DNA from: Chloroflexota bacterium
GTDB taxonomy: Bacteria > Chloroflexota > Limnocylindria > Limnocylindrales > CSP1-4
Reading direction: 5' to 3'
Length of the DNA: 41,393 nucleotides
Assembly: GCA_003152995.1 (NCBI GenBank)
Contig: PMBR01000051.1
Coordinates: 1 to 41,393 of the forward strand
The position numbers and the translations under genes are program-made. The notes under the pieces were generated by a model. It was not told the DNA's origin and did not search any database. It saw nothing but the letters and a program-made list of their open reading frames with translations. Numbering within the stretch: the first letter of the stretch is position 1; the number at the start of each line of letters is the position of its first letter. Below, one piece after another: positions 30,560-41,393 of this stretch.

Positions 30560-31483
30560 TCACCGACCTTGCCAACCTCGAACCGTGGCTGCGGGGCGCT
30601 CGTCGATCTCTGAGAACGACGTCAAGACGACGAGGCCCTGCCGCGTCCTGACCAGCAGCTTCCCGTCGTAGGCCAAGGCCAGCGACCCCGGAGCCAGCGC
30701 CTCGAATTCGGCCAGCAGCGCCGGATGTCGCGCCGCACGCGCCTCGAACACCCTGATCGCTCGGGTCCCAATCCGACAGCTCACGCCCTGAGTCCGAACG
30801 CCGAACGATCGGACGCGCCTCAGGATATCGTCGTCGTCCATCGCGGCGAGGTCAATGTGCATGTCCTCATCTCGTCGGGAGTAGTACGACCCGGCGCCGG
30901 CCTGGTCTTCTCCCACGTAGCCGAAGGCCGAGTCGATCATGGTGCACATTCCCGCCCGGAAGACCGTCGCTTCGAGCCGGAAGACCATGTGGTAGAGGAG
31001 TCCAAGGTCAAGGTCGTCGCTTACCTCAATTCGCTCCTGTCGTATGAGCCGCCCGGAGTCCACGCCGACGCCCATGTGATGCATCGTCGCGCCCACACGC
31101 CTCCGCCCGTTGAGGAGGGCGCCGTTGAGCGGGTGCAGGCCTCGCATCTCCGGCAGCGGTGATGGATGAACGTTCAGGAAGACGCGTCCAGGCCGGGCCA
31201 GCCTGCTCACCGGCAGGACGATCGGGCAGCCGTTCGACACCAGCACATCGAACGGCGTGCGTGCCAGCTCTTCGACGAGCCGCGCGCTGTCGGCCGGCGC
31301 GAACGTCTCGAAGTCTCGACCGAGCTCCCTCAACCGCTCCTCGAAATAGCTACCTGAGACGGCCCAGGTCCACTCGATTTCCAACTCCGCGAAGCTAAGG
31401 GCAGCCTCGAACACGAGCGGTCGGTTGCCCACGAATAGCACCCGCCGGAGCGATGGTCGGGTCCCGGCCCGTCTCGTCGTCAC
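30560..31483 (-). CDS. Formyltransferase-family protein, probable sugar N-formyltransferase
   Basis: The ~307-residue product has the formyl-transferase catalytic triad in the usual spacing: N104 and H106 in LNVHPSPLPEMRG, and D142 in GVGVDSGRL. It would transfer a formyl group from N10-formyltetrahydrofolate. It could be mistaken for methionyl-tRNA formyltransferase, but it sits with two sugar-type aminotransferases, an acetyltransferase and a glycosyltransferase. A nucleotide-amino-sugar substrate is therefore more likely. The track begins at 31555; I prefer the GTG at 31483, 10 bases after the acetyltransferase stop with AGAGG seven bases before it. It is the last gene of the leftward block. 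Confidence 0.8.
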   Translation of the reverse strand: MTTRRAGTRPSLRRVLFVGNRPLVFEAALSFAELEIEWTWAVSGSYFEERLRELGRDFETFAPADSARLVEELARTPFDVLVSNGCPIVLPVSRLARPGRVFLNVHPSPLPEMRGLHPLNGALLNGRRRVGATMHHMGVGVDSGRLIRQERIEVSDDLDLGLLYHMVFRLEATVFRAGMCTMIDSAFGYVGEDQAGAGSYYSRRDEDMHIDLAAMDDDDILRRVRSFGVRTQGVSCRIGTRAIRVFEARAARHPALLAEFEALAPGSLALAYDGKLLVRTRQGLVVLTSFSEIDERPAATVRGWQGR

Positions 31484-31493
31484 CTCCGCACCT

Positions 31494-32489
31494 CTATCCG
31501 TACTCGCCGGCCCGATAGGCTGGGAAGTAGTCCACCGAGTTGCGGCCGGCGGCAAGTCGACCAGTCGCCGCCCGCGTTAGCGATCCGTACCGCTCGGGAG
31601 ACAGAATTCGCCCGCACAGGTACGCGAGCCTGGAGCCCGTGGCCCAGCCGGCCTTGAATTCTGTGAGGCCGTCGCGGGCCTGTGCTTCGCCGATCCCGGC
31701 TCCGCCGCCGAGATCAAGCCAGCGGAGGCGGCCTCGGAAGTGCTCCAGCGCCGCCCAGTGAAGCGCGTACGCCGCGCCAAGCGAGTAGCCGCTCTCGGTC
31801 GTTGCGGCCAGATGGCTGTACGCGACACCGCCGGAGTTTCCTTCCGAATCCTCGAGGCAGATCGAGCCTTCCGGCCGCGATGGCGCGTACCAGAGATGCT
31901 CCCCCACTACCGTCTCGCCGTGGAGTGCTCGAAACAAGACCACTCCCGGCACGCGCATCTGGGCGTCGAAGGCCGCGGCCGAGAAGCTCCTGATTCCCTC
32001 GATTCCGTGGCGCGCGATGAGCCCCGAATACAGCCGGGTCCACTCCTCGACATGAGCCTCGGGCTTCGTGCTGACCTCTACCCGGAGTTCCCTCAGTGCC
32101 CGCCGCGCGTAATAGCGATGATGTTTCGACGCGACCGCTCGGTCCGATTCGGCCAGATCGACCACGAAATGCTTCTTGAACCGCCTGACCACGTCGAAGA
32201 TGCTCTTCAAGAGCGCTTCGTCATAAGCGCCGAAAGGATCCGTCACGAGAGTCACCGAGACGAGGCGGCCGGCCAGAGAGTCCAGGTCCGCGCGGAGCGC
32301 GGGCCAGTCGCCGCAGGCAAACAAGGGGTAGGGACCAATCGCGTCGCGCTCTTCGGTGCCGGGAATCGGTCGCTCGAGGAGCCATCCACGGCTCGCATCC
32401 AGGGCTATCGGCCGGCCGAACTCAGCAAGGGCGCGGGCATATGCAGGATGGGCGTAGCCCACCGGCCCGAAACCTCCCCCTGCGGTCAC
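31494..32489 (-). CDS. GNAT/FemAB-like acyltransferase
   Basis: The ~331-residue product resembles the Acetyltransf_6 (BioF2-like) group. The key region is about 130-300: FKKHFVVDLAESDRAVASKH, HHRYYARRALRELRVEV, VLFRALHGETVVGEHLWY and GAAYALHWAALEHFRGR. A GGGAG motif precedes KAGWATGSRLAYL. Such enzymes often acylate amino sugars or peptides in surface polysaccharide clusters. The start is a GTG overlapping the stop of the upstream aminotransferase gene (GTGA), so the track's earlier start is not needed. With the adjacent aminotransferases it could make an N-acylated amino sugar; the exact substrate is unknown. Confidence 0.75.
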   Translation of the reverse strand: MTAGGGFGPVGYAHPAYARALAEFGRPIALDASRGWLLERPIPGTEERDAIGPYPLFACGDWPALRADLDSLAGRLVSVTLVTDPFGAYDEALLKSIFDVVRRFKKHFVVDLAESDRAVASKHHRYYARRALRELRVEVSTKPEAHVEEWTRLYSGLIARHGIEGIRSFSAAAFDAQMRVPGVVLFRALHGETVVGEHLWYAPSRPEGSICLEDSEGNSGGVAYSHLAATTESGYSLGAAYALHWAALEHFRGRLRWLDLGGGAGIGEAQARDGLTEFKAGWATGSRLAYLCGRILSPERYGSLTRAATGRLAAGRNSVDYFPAYRAGEYG

Positions 32490-33535
32490 GTCCTGCCTTC
32501 TTCGGCAGCGACGATCGACGCGATCAAATCCATGTCGGCTTCGTCGTACCGCTGATCGCACGGCAGCGTCAGGATCCTCGACGACAGGGCGTGACTGGCC
32601 ACGAAGCTGGACGGTACGAAGGTTTCGATCTGCCAATGGGTCGGCGCGAAGATCTCGTGCGCGAAAAGGGCCTGGCGGACTCGGTCGCGGCCACTCAGCC
32701 GTACCGGAAACCCCAGCGGCACGACCTCATCGGGGAGCCGCGGGAACAACGCCAGCGCGGTCAGGGCAGAGGCGAGTCGAAGGTAATTCGCCCGTCGCCG
32801 CTCGGCCACGTCCGCGTAGTCGATCGCCCCGGACAGGAGGCGGTACGAGAGCTCGCTCATGGCGTACGGTCCCACCGGGGCCCCGTCCTCAGCCCGACGA
32901 AACAGGCCATACCAGTCGCGATCTCCGGACCCCCTATCGAAAGCGGCTCGGCGACGCGCGGCCTCGAGGGCGAGGCACCACCAATCGTCGGGAGGCGGAA
33001 CCATGGCCGGTCGGTTCAGCGTGCGTGACCGGAAACCGAGGATCCCCCCATCCGGCACGCCTACGAACTTGCGTGGGCTGAACACCACCGCATCTGCGTT
33101 GGAGCCGGCGCCAGAGGTCAGGAGCGCCTGGCTCGCATCCTCCAGCAGGAAAGCCCCGCGATCGCGGGCGGCGGCCATGAGTCCGTCGGGGGCTATGAAC
33201 CCGAAATAGTCGATGACGACGACGACGTCACCAGCTCCGACCTCGTCGAGCCATGTCAGGCCTGCGGGTTGCAGGGCCTCACCGACCGGATACCAGGCCA
33301 CAGGGACGCCGCCGCGGCTCACGCCGTCCAGAAGCGCCGCGCACAGGTAGGACGGTAGCCAGACACGCCCGGGGTGCAAGGCCTCCACGAGGATGGCCAC
33401 AGCGGATCGGGCGTTGACCGTTGCCAGGAACGAGCCGGACAGGAAGCCCGGCAGAGGTCGCGCGGCAGATCGTCGCTCCGCAGCCGCGCCGGCGTCGGCC
33501 AGGCCGAAGAGTCCGCCGATCAGGCCGCTCGACAC
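32486..33535 (-). CDS. PLP-dependent DegT-like aminotransferase (divergent)
   Basis: The 349-residue product has the fold-type I aminotransferase core: VWLPSYLCAALLDG, VVVIDYFGF, LLEDASQALL (PLP-contacting Asp) and SPRKFVGVPDGG (candidate Schiff-base Lys). It is shorter and more divergent than the neighbouring DegT enzyme, with a RKFVGVPDGG motif where DegT/StrS proteins usually read TKP..GEGG. The start is GTG with GAGGAG upstream, the Shine-Dalgarno straddling the previous stop. It likely aminates a keto-sugar or a related small molecule; the acceptor cannot be told. Confidence 0.78.
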   Translation of the reverse strand: MSSGLIGGLFGLADAGAAAERRSAARPLPGFLSGSFLATVNARSAVAILVEALHPGRVWLPSYLCAALLDGVSRGGVPVAWYPVGEALQPAGLTWLDEVGAGDVVVVIDYFGFIAPDGLMAAARDRGAFLLEDASQALLTSGAGSNADAVVFSPRKFVGVPDGGILGFRSRTLNRPAMVPPPDDWWCLALEAARRRAAFDRGSGDRDWYGLFRRAEDGAPVGPYAMSELSYRLLSGAIDYADVAERRRANYLRLASALTALALFPRLPDEVVPLGFPVRLSGRDRVRQALFAHEIFAPTHWQIETFVPSSFVASHALSSRILTLPCDQRYDEADMDLIASIVAAEEGRT

Positions 33536-33544
33536 CGACGCTCC

Positions 33545-34735
33545 TCAGGCGGCATGTTGCGGGCATCCTTCGACGGCGATCGCGTCGCGGCGTCGCGAGC
33601 GAACGGCCACGGGTCGCGCGAGTGCCTTTTCGATGATCGAACACACGAGACCTCGTTCCGCGTCGGTCAACTCTTCGAACAACGGGATGCAGAGGATTCG
33701 CGAGTATGCGGACTCGGTGACCGGCAGCGGTCCGTCGACGAAGGCACGGTAAGCCGGCATCGTGTGGCATGGGCGGAAGTAGCGCTTCGTCTGGACGCCT
33801 CGGTCGGCGAGGCTGGCCTCGACGCGATCGCGCGTGAACCCGTCCTGAAACAAGACCGCGAAGTCCTTGTAGGTGCTCCGATCCGCCGACGACACCCGCT
33901 GAACGGAGATCCCAGGCAGCGCCGCGAGCCAATCGCGGTACGCGACGACGTGGCGAAACCGCGCGGCCAGCGCATCCTCCACGCGCTTCATGGTCAGAAG
34001 CCCGAGCGCCGCATGGAGTTCGGAGAGTTTGCCGTTGAGACCGACGAAGCGTGAAACGTAGTCGTTCTGGAAGCCGTAGGCGCGCAGGTATCGGATCCTC
34101 TCGGCCAGCTCCGGGTCGTTGGTGGCCACCATCCCGCCCTCGCCGGACGTGACAGGCTTGGTCGCCGAGAGGCTGAAGACCTCCGCCGTTCCGAACGTGC
34201 CCACATGCTTCCCGTCATGCAGAGAGCCGTATCCGTGTGCTGCATCGAAGAGGAGCGGTATCCCGGCTTGCGCCGCAAGGCCGACGAGTGCGTCGATGTC
34301 GGCGGGGTTGCCGAACACATGCGTAGCGACGATGGCCCCGACGCCCTCCAGACGACGACTGATCGCCCGCGAGTCGACGTTGAGCGTCTCCGGATCGATG
34401 TCCACGAAGACGGGCCGGTGGCCGTTCCACAGGATGGCATTGACCGTCGAGTTGAAGGTGAATGAAGGCACCAGAACGCGGCTCGCCGGAGGCAAGTCGA
34501 GAGCGCGAACGGCGAGCATGAGCGCCACGTCTCCGCTGGACGCCGAGAGCAGGTAGCGGGCGCCCAGATACGCTCGGCTCTGATTCTCCAACTCGACCGC
34601 CAGGGGTCCGAAGTTGGAGAGCATTCGGCTGGACCAGATCCTGTCGAGCTGTTGCACGTACTCGCCAAGCGGGGGAAGCCACGGCCTGGTTATGGGAATC
34701 GAGTAGCCGGCGGGCGGCGTGTGCCCGGGTCTCAT
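33545..34735 (-). CDS. DegT/DnrJ/EryC1/StrS-family sugar aminotransferase
   Basis: This 396-residue enzyme has clear family motifs: SSGDVALMLAVRAL, VLVPSFTFNSTVNAIL, VFVDIDPETLNVD, FDAAHGYGS and the PLP-Lys motif SLSATKPVTSGEGGM (catalytic Lys). RAYGFQNDY and LNGKLSELHAALGL follow, and the C-terminus has YFRPCHTMPAY. Such enzymes convert nucleotide-linked 4-keto (or 3-keto) sugars to amino sugars. The track's 565-residue ORF runs too far upstream. The ATG at 34735 overlaps the methyltransferase stop (ATGA). It would provide the amino group modified by the acetyl- or formyltransferases downstream. Confidence 0.92.
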   Translation of the reverse strand: MRPGHTPPAGYSIPITRPWLPPLGEYVQQLDRIWSSRMLSNFGPLAVELENQSRAYLGARYLLSASSGDVALMLAVRALDLPPASRVLVPSFTFNSTVNAILWNGHRPVFVDIDPETLNVDSRAISRRLEGVGAIVATHVFGNPADIDALVGLAAQAGIPLLFDAAHGYGSLHDGKHVGTFGTAEVFSLSATKPVTSGEGGMVATNDPELAERIRYLRAYGFQNDYVSRFVGLNGKLSELHAALGLLTMKRVEDALAARFRHVVAYRDWLAALPGISVQRVSSADRSTYKDFAVLFQDGFTRDRVEASLADRGVQTKRYFRPCHTMPAYRAFVDGPLPVTESAYSRILCIPLFEELTDAERGLVCSIIEKALARPVAVRSRRRDAIAVEGCPQHAA

Positions 34736-35367
34736 CTCACCGCCTCCACGATCAGGTCCGTCTCGGGCCTGGTCTCGAGCCCAGTGAGGTCGGAATGCGA
34801 CGACTCTCCCCACCCGACACGCTGGACCTGCGCGAACCCAACGCGCCCGAGCCGGAGGCGAAGCTCGCTCTCGTTGTAGAGGTACTGGTGCTCCCATCCC
34901 CTGAACGACACGTTGATGAACGCCACTCGCGAATCCACCCAGCCGAAGGCCTGGTCCTGGATCCAGGGTTGATCGCGCCAATCGGGAGAGCTGTAGCGGC
35001 CAAGAATGCTCTCGAGGTCGGGCATGCCGAGGCGCATGACGCCGCCGGGCCGGAGGACTCGATACGCCTCGGTCATCAACAGCTGCCCGTCCGCGAGCCT
35101 CAGGTGCTCGAACATGTGCTCGGAGTGAATCCTGTCGACCGAAGCATCTGGAAAAGGCAGGCCGTAGCGAAGGTCGAGCGTCAGGTCCGGCGTGCCCCCG
35201 ACGTCTACGTTCACCCAGCCATCCAGAAGCACCGTGCCGCAACCAAGGTGAAGACGGAGAGGCGTCCGCGTGAGGAACCGCCGGGCGGCAACGTACCCTT
35301 CGATCACTTCCCTCTCAACAATGCTGCCGGGAACGCACACGGCCGTCGGAAGATTGAGTTCGTACAT
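34732..35367 (-). CDS. SAM-dependent methyltransferase (class I)
   Basis: The 211-residue product has motif I as LRLHLGCGTVLLDGWVNVD and an acidic DLRYGLPFPDASVDRIHSEH. The region MFEHLRLADGQLLMTEAYRV then LRPGGVMRLGMPDL is a pattern common in methyltransferases of polysaccharide and glycan loci. It may methylate a sugar or the carrier. The start ATG at 35367 has GGGAGG nine bases upstream and lies 17 bases after the glycosyltransferase stop. The earlier start in the track is not supported. Substrate unknown. Confidence 0.88.
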   Translation of the reverse strand: MYELNLPTAVCVPGSIVEREVIEGYVAARRFLTRTPLRLHLGCGTVLLDGWVNVDVGGTPDLTLDLRYGLPFPDASVDRIHSEHMFEHLRLADGQLLMTEAYRVLRPGGVMRLGMPDLESILGRYSSPDWRDQPWIQDQAFGWVDSRVAFINVSFRGWEHQYLYNESELRLRLGRVGFAQVQRVGWGESSHSDLTGLETRPETDLIVEAVR

Positions 35368-35384
35368 TTCGGAAAGCCTCCCAG

Positions 35385-37424
35385 TCAGGCGGCCGCGGGA
35401 CGGTGCCGTGCTTCCAGGTAATGGCGGTAGACGACATGCTCGAGGTTGCCCATGCGGACGCCCGCCTCGAGCATCCGGCGCCACAGGTTCCAATCTCCAG
35501 GTTCCATCAGGCGCCATGCATCAGGGTCGTAGTGGAAGAACCTCAGGTCCGCCGCGTAGAGGACGGAGCCGTGGCAAAGGCCCCCGAGCCGCGGCGGCCA
35601 GTCCCCGACCAGGCCCCACGAGCCGTCGCCCTTCTCCATCAACGATTGCCCGTACACGAGTTCGAGCCGGTTCTCGAGCGCTACTGCGAGCAGGATCTCG
35701 ACATGGTCCGGCGTGAACTCGTCGTCGTCGTCCAGCGGCGCAATCCACGCCCCCCGGGCCAGGTCGAGAGCGTGGTTCACGGCGTGGGTTCCGGCCACCT
35801 GCCAGCGTCTCTCGGGATCCAGTGGGTACGTCGGTTTCGGCAGGTTGACGAACTTGACACGCGGGTCGTGCACGGTGGCGGCCGCTTCGATCGTCTCCGG
35901 CGTGGCCCCGTCTCCCACCACGAGGATCTCGATGTTGTCGTAGGTCTGGGCCAGTGCAGAGTTGATTGAGCGTTCGACGAGTAGCCGACCGCGATCAAAC
36001 GTCGGAATCCGGATCGTCACGAGAGGGCGGTTTGCCGATTCCTCGGGCCAGCAGACGTCGCGGTCGCCGCGCAGGCGCTCGAGAGTCGAGCGTTCAGTGG
36101 CCGCCCTCTTTCGGACGAGTTGACGGTGGGCGAGGTTCGACGTTGACTCCGTCGCCAGAGCCGCCTCCCTCTCCGCGAGCTCCGACGTCTTCATCCCCGG
36201 AGCCACCCGCCTCAGGGCTCCGCGGCCGGCGTGATCGGCCGCCCAGCGGAAAGCGTCGGCCCACTCCCCGACTCGCTTTCGGACGTCGTATTCCGCCAGA
36301 ACGCGCTCGCGGGCCCGGCCCGCGAGATCCTCACGCATTTGAGACGAGGCGGCCACGCGGCGCAATTGTTCGCGCCACTGCGCCTTGTTGCGGGCCAGCA
36401 GACCATCGACGCCATCGCGGATCACGTCGTACGGACCGCCGCCCATCGTTCGAGAAGCCACGGTCGCCGCGCCGGCGAGCGAGTACTCGAGCCAGTGCAA
36501 CTCGGAGTGGCAGCGGCTGAAGTCGTCCTGTCCGACAGGCGCAAGCCCGATAGCCGGCCGTGCTGAGGCGAGCCGGCGCGCAAAGCCACGGACGTCGGGG
36601 ACGTACGGCAGTGCCTCGTCCACGACGGCTTGGACAGTGGGTTCGTCGCTGCCGAGCCAGATCCGGCGCCCGCCCGTCGATCGAGCCGTCTCGTCGACGA
36701 TGTCCCGGCAGATCTCGTAGTCGTGGAGGCGTGCTGCAACGCCGTAGTACATGAATGACAGTGGCCTTCGCCCGTCGTCCGGGACCTCCGGCTCGTACCA
36801 GGTCGCGTCGACCGCGTTCCGGACCACTCGAACCGCTGCGTTGTAGCGGCCGAAGCTGCTTGCCAGCGCGGGCGTCGTTACCGTTACGAGATCGGCCCTG
36901 CGGGCGAACCGCTCGATCAGGTCCAGGTCGCCCTGGATGCGCCGGTGGAAGCCGAGCCAGGGCTGAGGCGCGAGCAGGTTGTCATCCAGCTCATAGACCA
37001 TCGCCCGCCCCCGGAGGACGGTCGGGTCGTTTTCGATCGAGGTCAGGAGCGAGCGGATGATGCGGTCGCGACTGACGATGGCGTGGCCGGTCGCCTGCGC
37101 ATGCCCGGCCAGCCCGGCCTCATCCGGGGTCGCAAAGTCGCAGACGTCGCAGGCATGGACCGTCCCGTACCAGCGCCGGAAGACAACCACATCGGCCCAC
37201 TCGATCGGCGAGAGGTCGCACGTGGCGACGCCGTCGCGGATCGCGTCGTCGAGGCGATCCGCATACACCGGCGGCACCTGGACGCTGTAGTCGTTCAACT
37301 CTCCCCAGGTCCGCATCTCGACGCCGTGTTCGAGCAGGAGATCGCGGTATGTGCCCAGACGCACGGAATCGCATGGCCCGGCGTCCACCGAACCGTAGAC
37401 GAGGACGCGCAGAGGTTCGCCCAT
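35385..37424 (-). CDS. Two-domain glycosyltransferase with a C2H2 zinc-finger-like motif
   Basis: The 679-residue product fuses two glycosyltransferase modules. Residues ~1-400 look GT-B/GT4-like (MVYELDDNLLAP; VTVTTPALASSFG; YGVAARLHDYEICRDI; LEYSLAGAATVAS). Residues ~467-679 are a GT-A/GT2 domain (VTIRIPTFDRGRLLVERSIN, DXD-type LDDDDEFTPDH at 564-574). Within the first module lies Cys92-x2-Cys95-x12-His108-x5-His114, the spacing of a C2H2 zinc finger. It probably adds sugars to flagellin or a lipid carrier. The track starts at 37523; I prefer the ATG at 37424, though a hairpin covers the bases just before it. Confidence 0.85.
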   Translation of the reverse strand: MGEPLRVLVYGSVDAGPCDSVRLGTYRDLLLEHGVEMRTWGELNDYSVQVPPVYADRLDDAIRDGVATCDLSPIEWADVVVFRRWYGTVHACDVCDFATPDEAGLAGHAQATGHAIVSRDRIIRSLLTSIENDPTVLRGRAMVYELDDNLLAPQPWLGFHRRIQGDLDLIERFARRADLVTVTTPALASSFGRYNAAVRVVRNAVDATWYEPEVPDDGRRPLSFMYYGVAARLHDYEICRDIVDETARSTGGRRIWLGSDEPTVQAVVDEALPYVPDVRGFARRLASARPAIGLAPVGQDDFSRCHSELHWLEYSLAGAATVASRTMGGGPYDVIRDGVDGLLARNKAQWREQLRRVAASSQMREDLAGRARERVLAEYDVRKRVGEWADAFRWAADHAGRGALRRVAPGMKTSELAEREAALATESTSNLAHRQLVRKRAATERSTLERLRGDRDVCWPEESANRPLVTIRIPTFDRGRLLVERSINSALAQTYDNIEILVVGDGATPETIEAAATVHDPRVKFVNLPKPTYPLDPERRWQVAGTHAVNHALDLARGAWIAPLDDDDEFTPDHVEILLAVALENRLELVYGQSLMEKGDGSWGLVGDWPPRLGGLCHGSVLYAADLRFFHYDPDAWRLMEPGDWNLWRRMLEAGVRMGNLEHVVYRHYLEARHRPAAA

Positions 37425-37425
37425 G

Positions 37426-37442
37426 GCCCCGATGATCGGGGC
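37426..37442 (-). promoter_or_regulatory. Hairpin directly upstream of the glycosyltransferase start codon
   Basis: A perfect inverted repeat (GCCCCGA, 3 bases, TCGGGGC) ends one base before the ATG and would hide the only purine-rich stretch that could serve as Shine-Dalgarno. It could limit translation of the sugar block or mark the boundary from the fliS operon. Function is inferred. Confidence 0.4.
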
Positions 37443-37554
37443 GCGCACAGCGACGCAGAAGTGGTCAAAGGTGGGGCCGAAACGGGGTGGTCCGGATCTC
37501 CTAGGCCCCGATCGACCGGTCAAGGCCGATCACGGGGCGCTGCCCGCGGCCGCG

Positions 37555-37803
37555 CTAGTGGCGAATGGGCTGATCGCCGCCGTCGAGTGCGCGGACGATC
37601 CGATCGTCGTTGAGAAGCCTCAACTCTCGCCGGATCTGCTCCAGCTGGCACTGGAGCGAGATGAGAAGCTCGCGGTCGTCAATCAGGATTCGCTCGAGAC
37701 GTTGTTGAATGGCTCGGACCGAGAGCGGGCTCAGGGCAGCCGCCAGAGTCTCGGCAGCTACCTGCCGCTCCATGGACTGGGTGGCGAGACCGCGCGGGAT
37801 CAT
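37555..37803 (-). CDS. Small helical protein after fliS, possible FliT-like chaperone
   Basis: This 82-residue reading frame is hidden inside a longer ORF of the track. Its ATG at 37803 overlaps the fliS stop (ATGA), which strongly favours translation. The product is mostly helical and charged, with a coiled-coil-like AIQQRLERILIDDRELLISL and CQLEQIRRELRLLNDD. Genes directly after fliD-fliS commonly encode FliT-type export chaperones, so that role is likely by position. Sequence alone is too short and divergent to prove it. Confidence 0.6.
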   Translation of the reverse strand: MIPRGLATQSMERQVAAETLAAALSPLSVRAIQQRLERILIDDRELLISLQCQLEQIRRELRLLNDDRIVRALDGGDQPIRH

Positions 37804-38279
37804 CGCCGCGCGCTGCCGGCATACGATCCGGCCCCGACGAGCGACCCAACAGGCATTGGCGCACGAAGAGAAGGAACGGGTTCCAGCTCGGGCGCCGCCT
37901 CGGCAATTGCCGAGGCCGGTCGGGACGCCAGTTCCTGCCAGGCGTCGAGCAGGCCGCGCAGAACCTTCAAGGCATCTTCGGTCGGCTTGGGATCCTTGGA
38001 CACGTTCCCGGCGACCAGACGACGCAGGACGTAGTCGTACAGCTGATCCAACTGTATGGCGATCGGTCCGGCGGACAGGTCGAGCGAGCCGCGGAGCGCG
38101 GTGACGATCTCCTGGCATCGGATCGACGAGCGGTGGGCCCTCTCGATCTCGTGACGTTCGAGCCAGGCCAGGTGCTGCGCCCCAAAACGGATCGCGCCCT
38201 GGTAGAGCAGCACGATCTGGCCGGCGCGACTGGCGCTGACGACCTGCGATGTTCGGTACGTGGCGGTCGGATCGAGCAT
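37800..38279 (-). CDS. fliS: Flagellin-specific chaperone FliS
   Basis: FliS binds the C-terminus of flagellin and keeps it from polymerising before export. The ~159-residue product starts MLDPTATYRTSQVVSASRAG and has QIVLLYQGAIRFGAQHLAWL, EIVTALRGSLDLSAGPIAIQ and LYDYVLRRLVAGN, close to the standard FliS pattern (Y..N.v.ta.p..li.mLYdgai). A Pro/Ala-rich tail of ~40 residues is extra. I prefer the ATG at 38279 because GAGG lies nine bases upstream; Met at 38294 is the alternative. A putative sigma-28 promoter lies 58 bases upstream. Confidence 0.93.
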   Translation of the reverse strand: MLDPTATYRTSQVVSASRAGQIVLLYQGAIRFGAQHLAWLERHEIERAHRSSIRCQEIVTALRGSLDLSAGPIAIQLDQLYDYVLRRLVAGNVSKDPKPTEDALKVLRGLLDAWQELASRPASAIAEAAPELEPVPSLRAPMPVGSLVGAGSYAGSARR

Positions 38280-38550
38280 TGATCGGGGCCTCATGGCTTC
38301 GACTATGGAGGCCGCCCGTGGGCGGTTCCACCTTAGTAGTCGGCTCGGCGATGGGGCCCCTTGACCCTTCGTGGCCTCCCGTCACCACCAGTGCCGCGGG
38401 GTCGGCCAACAGCGATCCGCCGCCGGGCGGCTCCCTGCCAGGCACGCCAGAATGATCGACACGCACGCGCGACCGCCCGGCGGACAGCCCGGATTGGGCG
38501 CGCCGCCACTCGAACGACTGCCCCGGTTTGCGGTTTCGGCCCGGCGAGCT
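38280..38550. other. Intergenic region between fliD and fliS
   Basis: These 271 bases hold the putative fliS promoter (38337-38364) and a CCGCCC/GGGCGG dyad in the fliS leader. Several GC-rich short dyads near the fliD stop may terminate fliD transcription. No convincing gene is present; the short plus-strand ORFs here overlap fliD codons and lack start signals. Confidence 0.5.
38337..38364 (-). promoter_or_regulatory. Putative sigma-28-type promoter of fliS
   Basis: On the minus strand: TCAA (38364-38361), 16 bases, GCCGACTA (38344-38337). Predicted start near 38330. Confidence 0.5.
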
Positions 38551-40782
38551 CTAGCTGCCCGTGGACGAGCTGCCCAGACCGCTGCCTGAAGAAGACGTCG
38601 ACGAGGTCGAGATCCCAAGCGTGGCGTTGATCTGCGCCGACTGGGCCTGCAACGTGGCCAGGGTGGCCTCCATCGCGGCGTACTGCGCTTCGATCATGGT
38701 CTGGTAGTTGTCGATCATCTCCTGGCGATCGGCTTCCTGCCGCTGGAGGTCGCTGATCTCCGTGGCCAGGCCGTCGGTGTGGGCCTGGATGTAGGAGTTC
38801 TTGCTGCTCGGATCCTCGAGAGTCTGGAGCTTCGTCAGCACGGCCGCGAACGGGCCGCTCGAACCGTCAAGGAGCGAGGCAACCTGGCTCGCGTCGGAGT
38901 TGAGCGCGGCCGTCAGCTTGGTCGTGTCCAACTGCAGCCGATTGGTAGTCCCGACCGCGGCTCCGATGTTGCCGGTGTTGAGCCCGATGGCCCCCAGCGA
39001 ATTGAGCGTGCCGGTACCCGTCGTCGCGAACAAGGTCTCTCGCAGGCCCAGGAGAAGCGATCGAGCCGTCGGATCCGACGCCAGCGGAGCAGCCGTACCG
39101 CCGGTGCCGCCGGACGTGCCGGGCGTCTCCGCCGTCGCCTGGTCGAGGAGATCGCCCAGCGCATTGAAGCTGGTCACGAACTGGTTGAGCGCGTTCGAGA
39201 CCGCCGTCTGGTCGACTCCGATCGTGAGGGTCTGTGCCAGGCCGAGCGGACTCAGTTTCGCGATATTGATCGTCACGCCATCGATGGCGTTGCTGACGGC
39301 GTTGGTGGTGCTGGTGATGGACCGGCCATCCACGGTCACCTGGGCGGTCAGGCCGATCGTCTGGGCGTTCGTCGTCCCGGGGGCGAGCTTGAGCGCCGCT
39401 CCGAGCGTGCCGCTGGTGTCTTTGATGTCCATGGCGACCGCGCCGGTGTCCTTGCGCGCCAGGATCAGCTGGTCGTTGGTGCGATCGACCGAGGCGACCA
39501 CGCCGGCCGCCGAGTTGTTGATCCGGGTGATGAGGGCGGACATCGAATCGCCGGTGGTGTCGTAGGCGATGTCGACGCCGTTGATCGTCAGCACACCCGT
39601 TTTGGTGGACGTGAGACCCGTCAGGCCGGCCGTGTCGAGGGAACCGTTCATTCGGGCTACGCCCAGGTTGGTCGTGCCGGTGAGTGTCGGGTTGGTCGCG
39701 TTGGTCGCCTTTGCATTGGCTATGCCGAGCATGCCCAGGGCATTGCTCGCGTCGCCCGCGGCCCCGAACGAAAGCGAATGCGTCAGACCCGCGCCCGAGA
39801 TGGAGAACTGGAGCCGGTTGCCGACGGCGGACGCATCGACCGTCGCCGTCGCGTCGGCGCCGACGTTGACGCCGCCCGCCCGGAGCTGGCTCTGGATCGC
39901 GGCCGAGAAGCCCTGCAGCGTCTGAGTCAGCGTGGTCTTCGTAGGGTCGCCGACGGTGTAGTGGACCAGGATGCCGTCCACGACGGCGGTGATCTGGCCG
40001 GCCGTCACGGAGCCCGGCAGGTTGAGGGACGAGAGGACCGGGTCGAGGTACGACGTACCGGTTATTGCGGCGTTCTGAGCGCCCGACACGCCCTGTGTGT
40101 CCAGCCCGAGCGCTTTGGCCGCGTTGCTCGTGTCGCCGATATCTCCGAACGAGATGTCGTGGCCGGTGGCGTTGCCGCTGATCGAGAGTTGCAGCTGTCC
40201 GCCGACAATGGCTGCCGAAACCGTGGAGCCGGCGTCGCTCATCTGAAGTTGCGACTGCAGCGCGCCGGCCAGACCGTCCATGACCGTCTGGAGCGAGGTC
40301 GTGGTCGGATCGCCGACGGCGAACTGGACCGCCGTGCCGTCGACGGTGAGGGTCATGTTCCCCGTCGTGATCGGCGTGGCCAGGTTTGCGTTGCTGAGTT
40401 TCAGAGAGGTGTCGACGTTGCCGGTGACGGCTGCGCCCATGGAAGTCGTCGAGGCCGCGCGCGTGGCTGTGGCCAGGCGATCGACCGAGACCTGGTATTG
40501 CGACACGGGCGTGCTCGTGGCGGCCGTGGCGGTGAAGACCGTGGGATCGGCAGAAGTCGCGACGCGGCTGGCGCCTGCGGCTGTGACGGTGAAGAGCTTC
40601 ACCTTCGTCACGAGATCGTCCAGGGCCGTGCCGACCTGGCTGTAAGCGGCCTTCTGGGAAGTGAGGTCGGCTTCCTTGCTCTGGAGTTCGGTGAGCGGCT
40701 GCTTCTTGACCGCAACGAGGGCATCGATGATGCCCTGCGTGTTCAGACCAGAGATGACGCCGCCGAACTGGATTGTCGACAT
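38551..40782 (-). CDS. fliD: Flagellar hook-associated protein 2 (filament cap) FliD with duplicated central domain
   Basis: FliD caps the growing filament and folds flagellin into place. The N-terminal D0/D1 part begins IQFGGVISGLNTQGIIDALV; the C-terminal coiled-coil (DLQRQEADRQEMIDNYQTMI, then EAQYAAMEATLATLQAQ) is typical. The protein is 743 residues, well above the usual 450-500. Two homologous segments (~125-246 and ~247-372) share VDGxxVxxxVGDPTxTxLQTxxxGxxxAxQSQL and a xxLQxSIS...xSFGxxGDxSNA pattern. A more divergent third copy (~378-470) begins GVLTINGVDIAYDTTGDS. The start ATG has GGGAG upstream and a strong sigma-28-like promoter. Confidence 0.93.
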   Translation of the reverse strand: MSTIQFGGVISGLNTQGIIDALVAVKKQPLTELQSKEADLTSQKAAYSQVGTALDDLVTKVKLFTVTAAGASRVATSADPTVFTATAATSTPVSQYQVSVDRLATATRAASTTSMGAAVTGNVDTSLKLSNANLATPITTGNMTLTVDGTAVQFAVGDPTTTSLQTVMDGLAGALQSQLQMSDAGSTVSAAIVGGQLQLSISGNATGHDISFGDIGDTSNAAKALGLDTQGVSGAQNAAITGTSYLDPVLSSLNLPGSVTAGQITAVVDGILVHYTVGDPTKTTLTQTLQGFSAAIQSQLRAGGVNVGADATATVDASAVGNRLQFSISGAGLTHSLSFGAAGDASNALGMLGIANAKATNATNPTLTGTTNLGVARMNGSLDTAGLTGLTSTKTGVLTINGVDIAYDTTGDSMSALITRINNSAAGVVASVDRTNDQLILARKDTGAVAMDIKDTSGTLGAALKLAPGTTNAQTIGLTAQVTVDGRSITSTTNAVSNAIDGVTINIAKLSPLGLAQTLTIGVDQTAVSNALNQFVTSFNALGDLLDQATAETPGTSGGTGGTAAPLASDPTARSLLLGLRETLFATTGTGTLNSLGAIGLNTGNIGAAVGTTNRLQLDTTKLTAALNSDASQVASLLDGSSGPFAAVLTKLQTLEDPSSKNSYIQAHTDGLATEISDLQRQEADRQEMIDNYQTMIEAQYAAMEATLATLQAQSAQINATLGISTSSTSSSGSGLGSSSTGS

Positions 40783-41371: not shown

Positions 41372-41393
41372 CTAGCGGAGCAGGGTGAGGATG
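41372..41393 (-). CDS. C-terminal end of a probable flagellin gene (partial)
   Basis: Only seven sense codons are visible before the TAG: they encode ILTLLR preceded by a cut codon. Flagellins typically end in VLSLLR, ILQLL or similar. The strong terminator, followed by chaperone-like, fliD and fliS genes, is the usual context downstream of flagellin. The call rests on six residues plus context. Confidence 0.55.

Follow-up and report, generated by a model that had tools for sequence, protein, structure and literature searches.

Three tandem D3-type head modules in the flagellar cap protein FliD of a Chloroflexota genus

The stretch of DNA analysed here (the window, 41,393 nucleotides from an uncultured Chloroflexota bacterium) carries fliD, the gene for the filament cap protein, as an ATG-start open reading frame of 743 aa at positions 38551..40782 on the minus strand. 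Directly downstream lies fliS, which encodes the flagellin chaperone (37800..38294, minus strand; PF02561, E = 1.6e-29), and upstream are the last codons and the stop of a flagellin gene (ILTLLR*; 41372..41392, minus strand), recognised from the window-edge translation and a flagellin alignment. The window ends within this gene (41372-41393) at a two-N assembly gap (L078 4395-4396). FliF, FliG and a flagellar-type ATPase are encoded further along the same window. Pfam placed FliD_N (PF02465) at residues 11-106 (7.6e-18) and FliD_C (PF07195) at residues 480-712 (1.4e-37), both above cut-off. The top PDB matches of the protein, by sequence and by fold alike, were FliD caps, with the solved caps matched by the predicted fold at E = 9e-20 in Foldseek. 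The window protein is a FliD (HAP2) cap protein inside a flagellar cluster.

Residues 1-117 (40432..40782; all parts of the gene are given on the minus strand) comprise the D0/D1 N-terminal leg and the first D2 hairpin (strands 94-102 and 106-110), as delimited by FliD_N and an AlphaFold2 model. Residues 479-743 (38554..39348), which include FliD_C, hold the remaining D2 strands (480-523 in the model), the long C-terminal leg helices that follow them, and a Ser/Gly-rich tail. Between these two parts lie three modules: R1 (residues 118-242; 40057..40431), an extra D3-type head module and the derived copy; R2 (residues 243-371; 39670..40056), a D3-type module found in all 16 FliDs of the f1 family that were aligned; and R3 (residues 372-478; 39349..39669), the canonical D3 with its Flagellin_IN motif.

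R1 and R2 share 42% identity over 133 columns (BLASTP, E = 4e-33), and their Smith-Waterman score of 249 compares with a mean of 44 and a maximum of 84 for shuffled sequences (z = 26). Pairwise comparison of R3 with R1 or R2 by the same shuffling approach gave no similarity (z < 1), and a profile comparison of R2 with R3 in hhalign was not significant. The profiles of R1 and R3 were collinear over 96 columns at E = 9e-5, with a probability of just 59%. We also used a module HMM grown exclusively from FliD modules outside the family of the window FliD. This held-out HMM matched the window protein at residues 119-239 (1e-10), 241-366 (0.006) and 372-481 (3e-20), and its best E-value among 400 shuffled sequences was 2.1. 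When R3 was scanned alone, PF07196 (Flagellin_IN) matched at E = 5.1e-8 (33.4 bits, cut-off 22.7); the family was absent from the whole-protein Pfam scan at E up to 1, and R1 and R2 did not match it at E up to 5. Solved FliD heads aligned to the R3 region in phmmer. By its motif and these alignments, R3 is the ordinary D3 of FliD (Pfam Flagellin_IN), and the tie of R1 and R2 to Flagellin_IN-type modules runs only through family profiles and predicted topology.

At the DNA level, R1 and R2 are 54% identical and their longest shared word is 10 bases, pointing to a duplication that is old. A recent DNA duplication or an assembly collapse is ruled out by these values, and nine other MAGs with the same R1-R2-R3 arrangement likewise speak against collapse. 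A foreign origin of R1 could also be dismissed, since its GC and GC3 resemble those of the rest of fliD.

In the AlphaFold2 model of the window FliD (mean pLDDT 83, pTM 0.50), the predicted fold has helical legs and a D2 that is interrupted by a head domain, and R1 to R3 sit between the D2 strands 94-110 and 480-523; with a pTM of 0.50, the relative placement of the modules in this model is unreliable. All three modules were predicted with the element order strand-strand-helix-strand-strand-strand-helix, the last helix being short. A two-module relative, modelled in the same way, had one module fewer and was otherwise alike. A profile of R1/R2 gave no convincing match in the PDB; weak matches to engineered proteins over about 38 positions were judged to be chance. 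The initial annotation had described a 743-residue FliD with internal homologues at residues ~125-246 and ~247-372 and a divergent third copy at ~378-470. The length and identity of the protein agree with the reading frame, both Pfam domains and the PDB matches, and the self-comparison of the first two segments was highly significant, with boundaries a few residues off. The third copy was recovered at 372-478 by the held-out HMM, the R1-R3 profiles and the topology that the structure prediction assigns to all three copies.

In solved FliD structures, D3 is inserted into a loop of D2 (PMC5072837, PMC8533109), and the FliD head is formed by D2-D3 (PMC7316729). The repeated part is this D3-type head module, which by analogy would belong to the distal cap plate. 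With such a module repeated, more head mass per subunit follows as a natural consequence, and a bulkier exposed cap head or tip on normal legs is the best-supported consequence that we infer from the comparison.

FliD was detected in 12 of 21 congeneric genomes searched and in four genomes of three sister genera, all of them MAGs. Ten of the 12 FliD-bearing congeners have R1, R2 and R3 (736-749 aa), whereas G046 (624 aa) and G054 (612 aa; its fliD lies on a 3.8 kb contig) have R2 and R3 only, as do the four FliDs of the sister genera (588-600 aa). In a tree of the modules, R1 formed one clade (support 100/99); in the two-module proteins, the one module besides R3 grouped with R2. Two modules (R2 and R3) thus appear, from this grouping, to be the ancestral state in the family, with R1 alone as the extra. 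The initial annotation had proposed a survey of FliD length among relatives and had expected a larger cap plate. The expansion is real, but only R1 is added over the two-module relatives; the larger plate is supported in that the repeat is a head module from which more head mass would follow, and fails in its baseline, two modules being already ancestral.

A tree of the FliD core, from which R1 and R2 had been removed, placed G046 and G054 nested inside the genus. Grouping the three-module proteins into one clade was rejected for the FliD core (p = 0.04) and for the fliG neighbourhood (p = 1e-5), where G046 and G054 fell in different places. The same tests reject the two-module congeners as an ancestral state within the genus, which implies that G046 and G054 have lost R1. 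In the simplest history, R1 would have arisen once, ahead of the radiation of the genus, with at least one and probably two losses within it. A split of R1 before the divergence of the neighbouring genera and one after it are both compatible with the data (AU p = 0.41-0.49). The rpoB gene was present in too few genomes to serve as a species tree. It was also noted that the fliG-neighbourhood and fliD trees conflict within the genus, one pairing G050 with G000 and the other with G049; this may reflect recombination among flagellar genes or MAG chimerism, and the count of losses may be affected. Amino-acid identity was 65% for R1, 70% for R2 and 62% for the C-terminal part, and third-codon changes in R1 were 2.1 times those at positions 1 and 2. 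By these measures, the conservation of R1 is close to that of the remaining protein.

Taken together, we favour, with a probability of about 75%, an orthodox FliD cap that carries three tandem D3-type modules in its D2 loop, with R3 ancestral, R2 older than the genera and R1 derived from a single duplication, the extra modules enlarging the tip. The D2 loop, which accommodates a single D3 in well-studied caps, would hold all three modules, with R3 representing the ancestral D3. R2 was in place before the genera of the family split, and R1 arose by one internal duplication ahead of the radiation of the genus, remaining under purifying selection in most species since. The data establish the homology, order, phylogeny, conservation and loss of the modules, whereas their place in the assembled cap and their role are inferred. 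The N- and C-terminal legs would behave like those of other caps, assembling and rotating on the filament, and the extra modules would be stacked onto the head or plate, enlarging the exposed tip. Most likely they would form a replaceable surface layer, taking part in contacts between plate subunits or with the outside, and would lie outside the flagellin-insertion machinery.

What such a layer might do was considered from several sides. An adhesive tip, in which the modules bind glycans of plants, particles or cell surfaces with an avidity that grows with copy number, is a possibility that we regard with some doubt. FliD acts as an adhesin in some bacteria, with mucin binding in P. aeruginosa PAK (reviewed in PMC8306008); a virulence role has been suggested for D4/D5, the additional domains in the head of H. 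pylori FliD (PMC8306008), and heparin binding for the D4 insertion of C. jejuni FliD (PMC7316729). However, R1 and R2 match no known carbohydrate-binding or adhesion family, and R1 is no more variable than the protein core, whereas many surface-binding regions are. It is unlikely that R1 is neutral baggage, i.e., a duplication tolerated in a permissive loop with no function of its own. Its probable double loss within the genus, and the fact that one-module FliDs elsewhere work, would fit such a history, but R1 was kept through the radiation of the genus in 10 of 12 species, shows an excess of third-position changes, and is conserved nearly as well as R2 and better than the C-terminal part.

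A link to the filament, in which larger outer domains of flagellin call for a larger cap plate, seems very improbable. The flagellin outer domain is shorter in one of the congeners without R1 (G046) and missing in the other (G054), too few cases to prove anything. Against this, median flagellin lengths were 396 aa in nine three-module genomes and 393 aa in 15 two-module genomes (n = 24, p = 0.57), the flagellin outer domain is the same in the window genome and in the two-module sister genera, and G194 combines three modules with a 291-aa flagellin. The modified filament that the initial annotation had offered as one purpose of the duplication is not supported by these lengths.

Module number was also followed across the phylum with an iterated module profile, and all modules detected fell in the central region of the Chloroflexota FliDs. 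Most of these proteins have two D3-type modules; one was found in L033, L044 and L050 (and in L006, whose phylum was not checked), and three in the genus of the window and in L024, L032, L039, L043 and L045. Pfam independently assigned two Flagellin_IN stretches to L025 and three to L024 and L032. With one to three modules across Chloroflexota FliDs, a variable number is a phylum-wide habit and not peculiar to the window fliD. It could be argued that module number is an evolving dial, with tandem D3-type modules gained and lost between sister species so as to alter tip contacts independently of the filament, although we find this reading rather improbable.

The enlarged D3-type head was then compared with known systems. 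FliD of Enterobacteriaceae and Pseudomonas (HAP2; PDB 5H5V, 5FHY, 9GNZ) resembles the window FliD in its legs, the D2 split around D3, the FliD_N and FliD_C domains and the adjacent fliS; however, it has one D3 in about 470 aa, compared to three modules in 743 aa. In C. jejuni FliD, D4 is inserted in D1 (PMC7316729). H. pylori FliD (PDB 6IWY) has two more head domains, D4 and D5, with D2/D3-like folds (PMC8306008), and on the published description set beside our predicted structure, the heads of both proteins would be enlarged by extra D2/D3-like domains. The extras of the window FliD are recognisable tandem homologues of each other, and their number varies within one genus. FliDs of other Chloroflexota families (L024, L025, L032, L039, L043 and L045) also have two or three D3-type modules in tandem, flanked by FliD_N and FliD_C, but these are far diverged in sequence, and the R1-R2 pair belongs to the genus of the window.

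The literature searched, which covered few subscription journals, yielded no description of a FliD head module duplicated in tandem. The nearest precedent is found in the giant flagellins of Oceanospirillales, where DE, an outer domain of an axial protein, has likewise been duplicated internally in tandem and passed on vertically (PMC6248924); there the duplication affects flagellin and gives thick filaments, whereas here it concerns the cap protein. The tripled head module is a modest though conserved variation of an already known type. Its value lies in the presence or absence of R1 within one genus, a natural experiment on a cap with swappable head domains whose size variation is largely unexplained, and in showing that tandem duplication of modules can enlarge cap heads, as it does giant flagellins. 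Apart from these two aspects, it is ordinary protein-domain evolution.

Several observations were made on the flagellar surroundings. Between fliS and the chemotaxis genes (window 30560-37523) lie genes for a formyltransferase, an aminotransferase of the DegT type and a large glycosyltransferase in two parts, a set that suggests a glycan with a formylated amino sugar, for which flagellin may be the carrier. Beside the flagellin gene, a glycosyltransferase-like open reading frame (L078 5645-8197) appears to have been duplicated internally in tandem, its halves of about 400 aa each being similar. The flagellins of L088 (G049) and L087 (G044, in which no fliD was found) exceed 610 aa, with an enlarged outer domain that is apparently internally repeated, compared to about 390 aa in other congeners. 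BLAST gave no support for homology between the FliD modules and the outer domains of flagellin or FlgK. Finally, FlgK, encoded outside the window (L078 9820-11676, G000:C82), has a central stretch (residues 379-499) that shows homology with the outer domain of flagellin (44% identity with the G097 flagellin at E = 7e-23; 45% with the flagellin of its own genome), and by this alignment the hook-filament junction protein and flagellin share an outer module.
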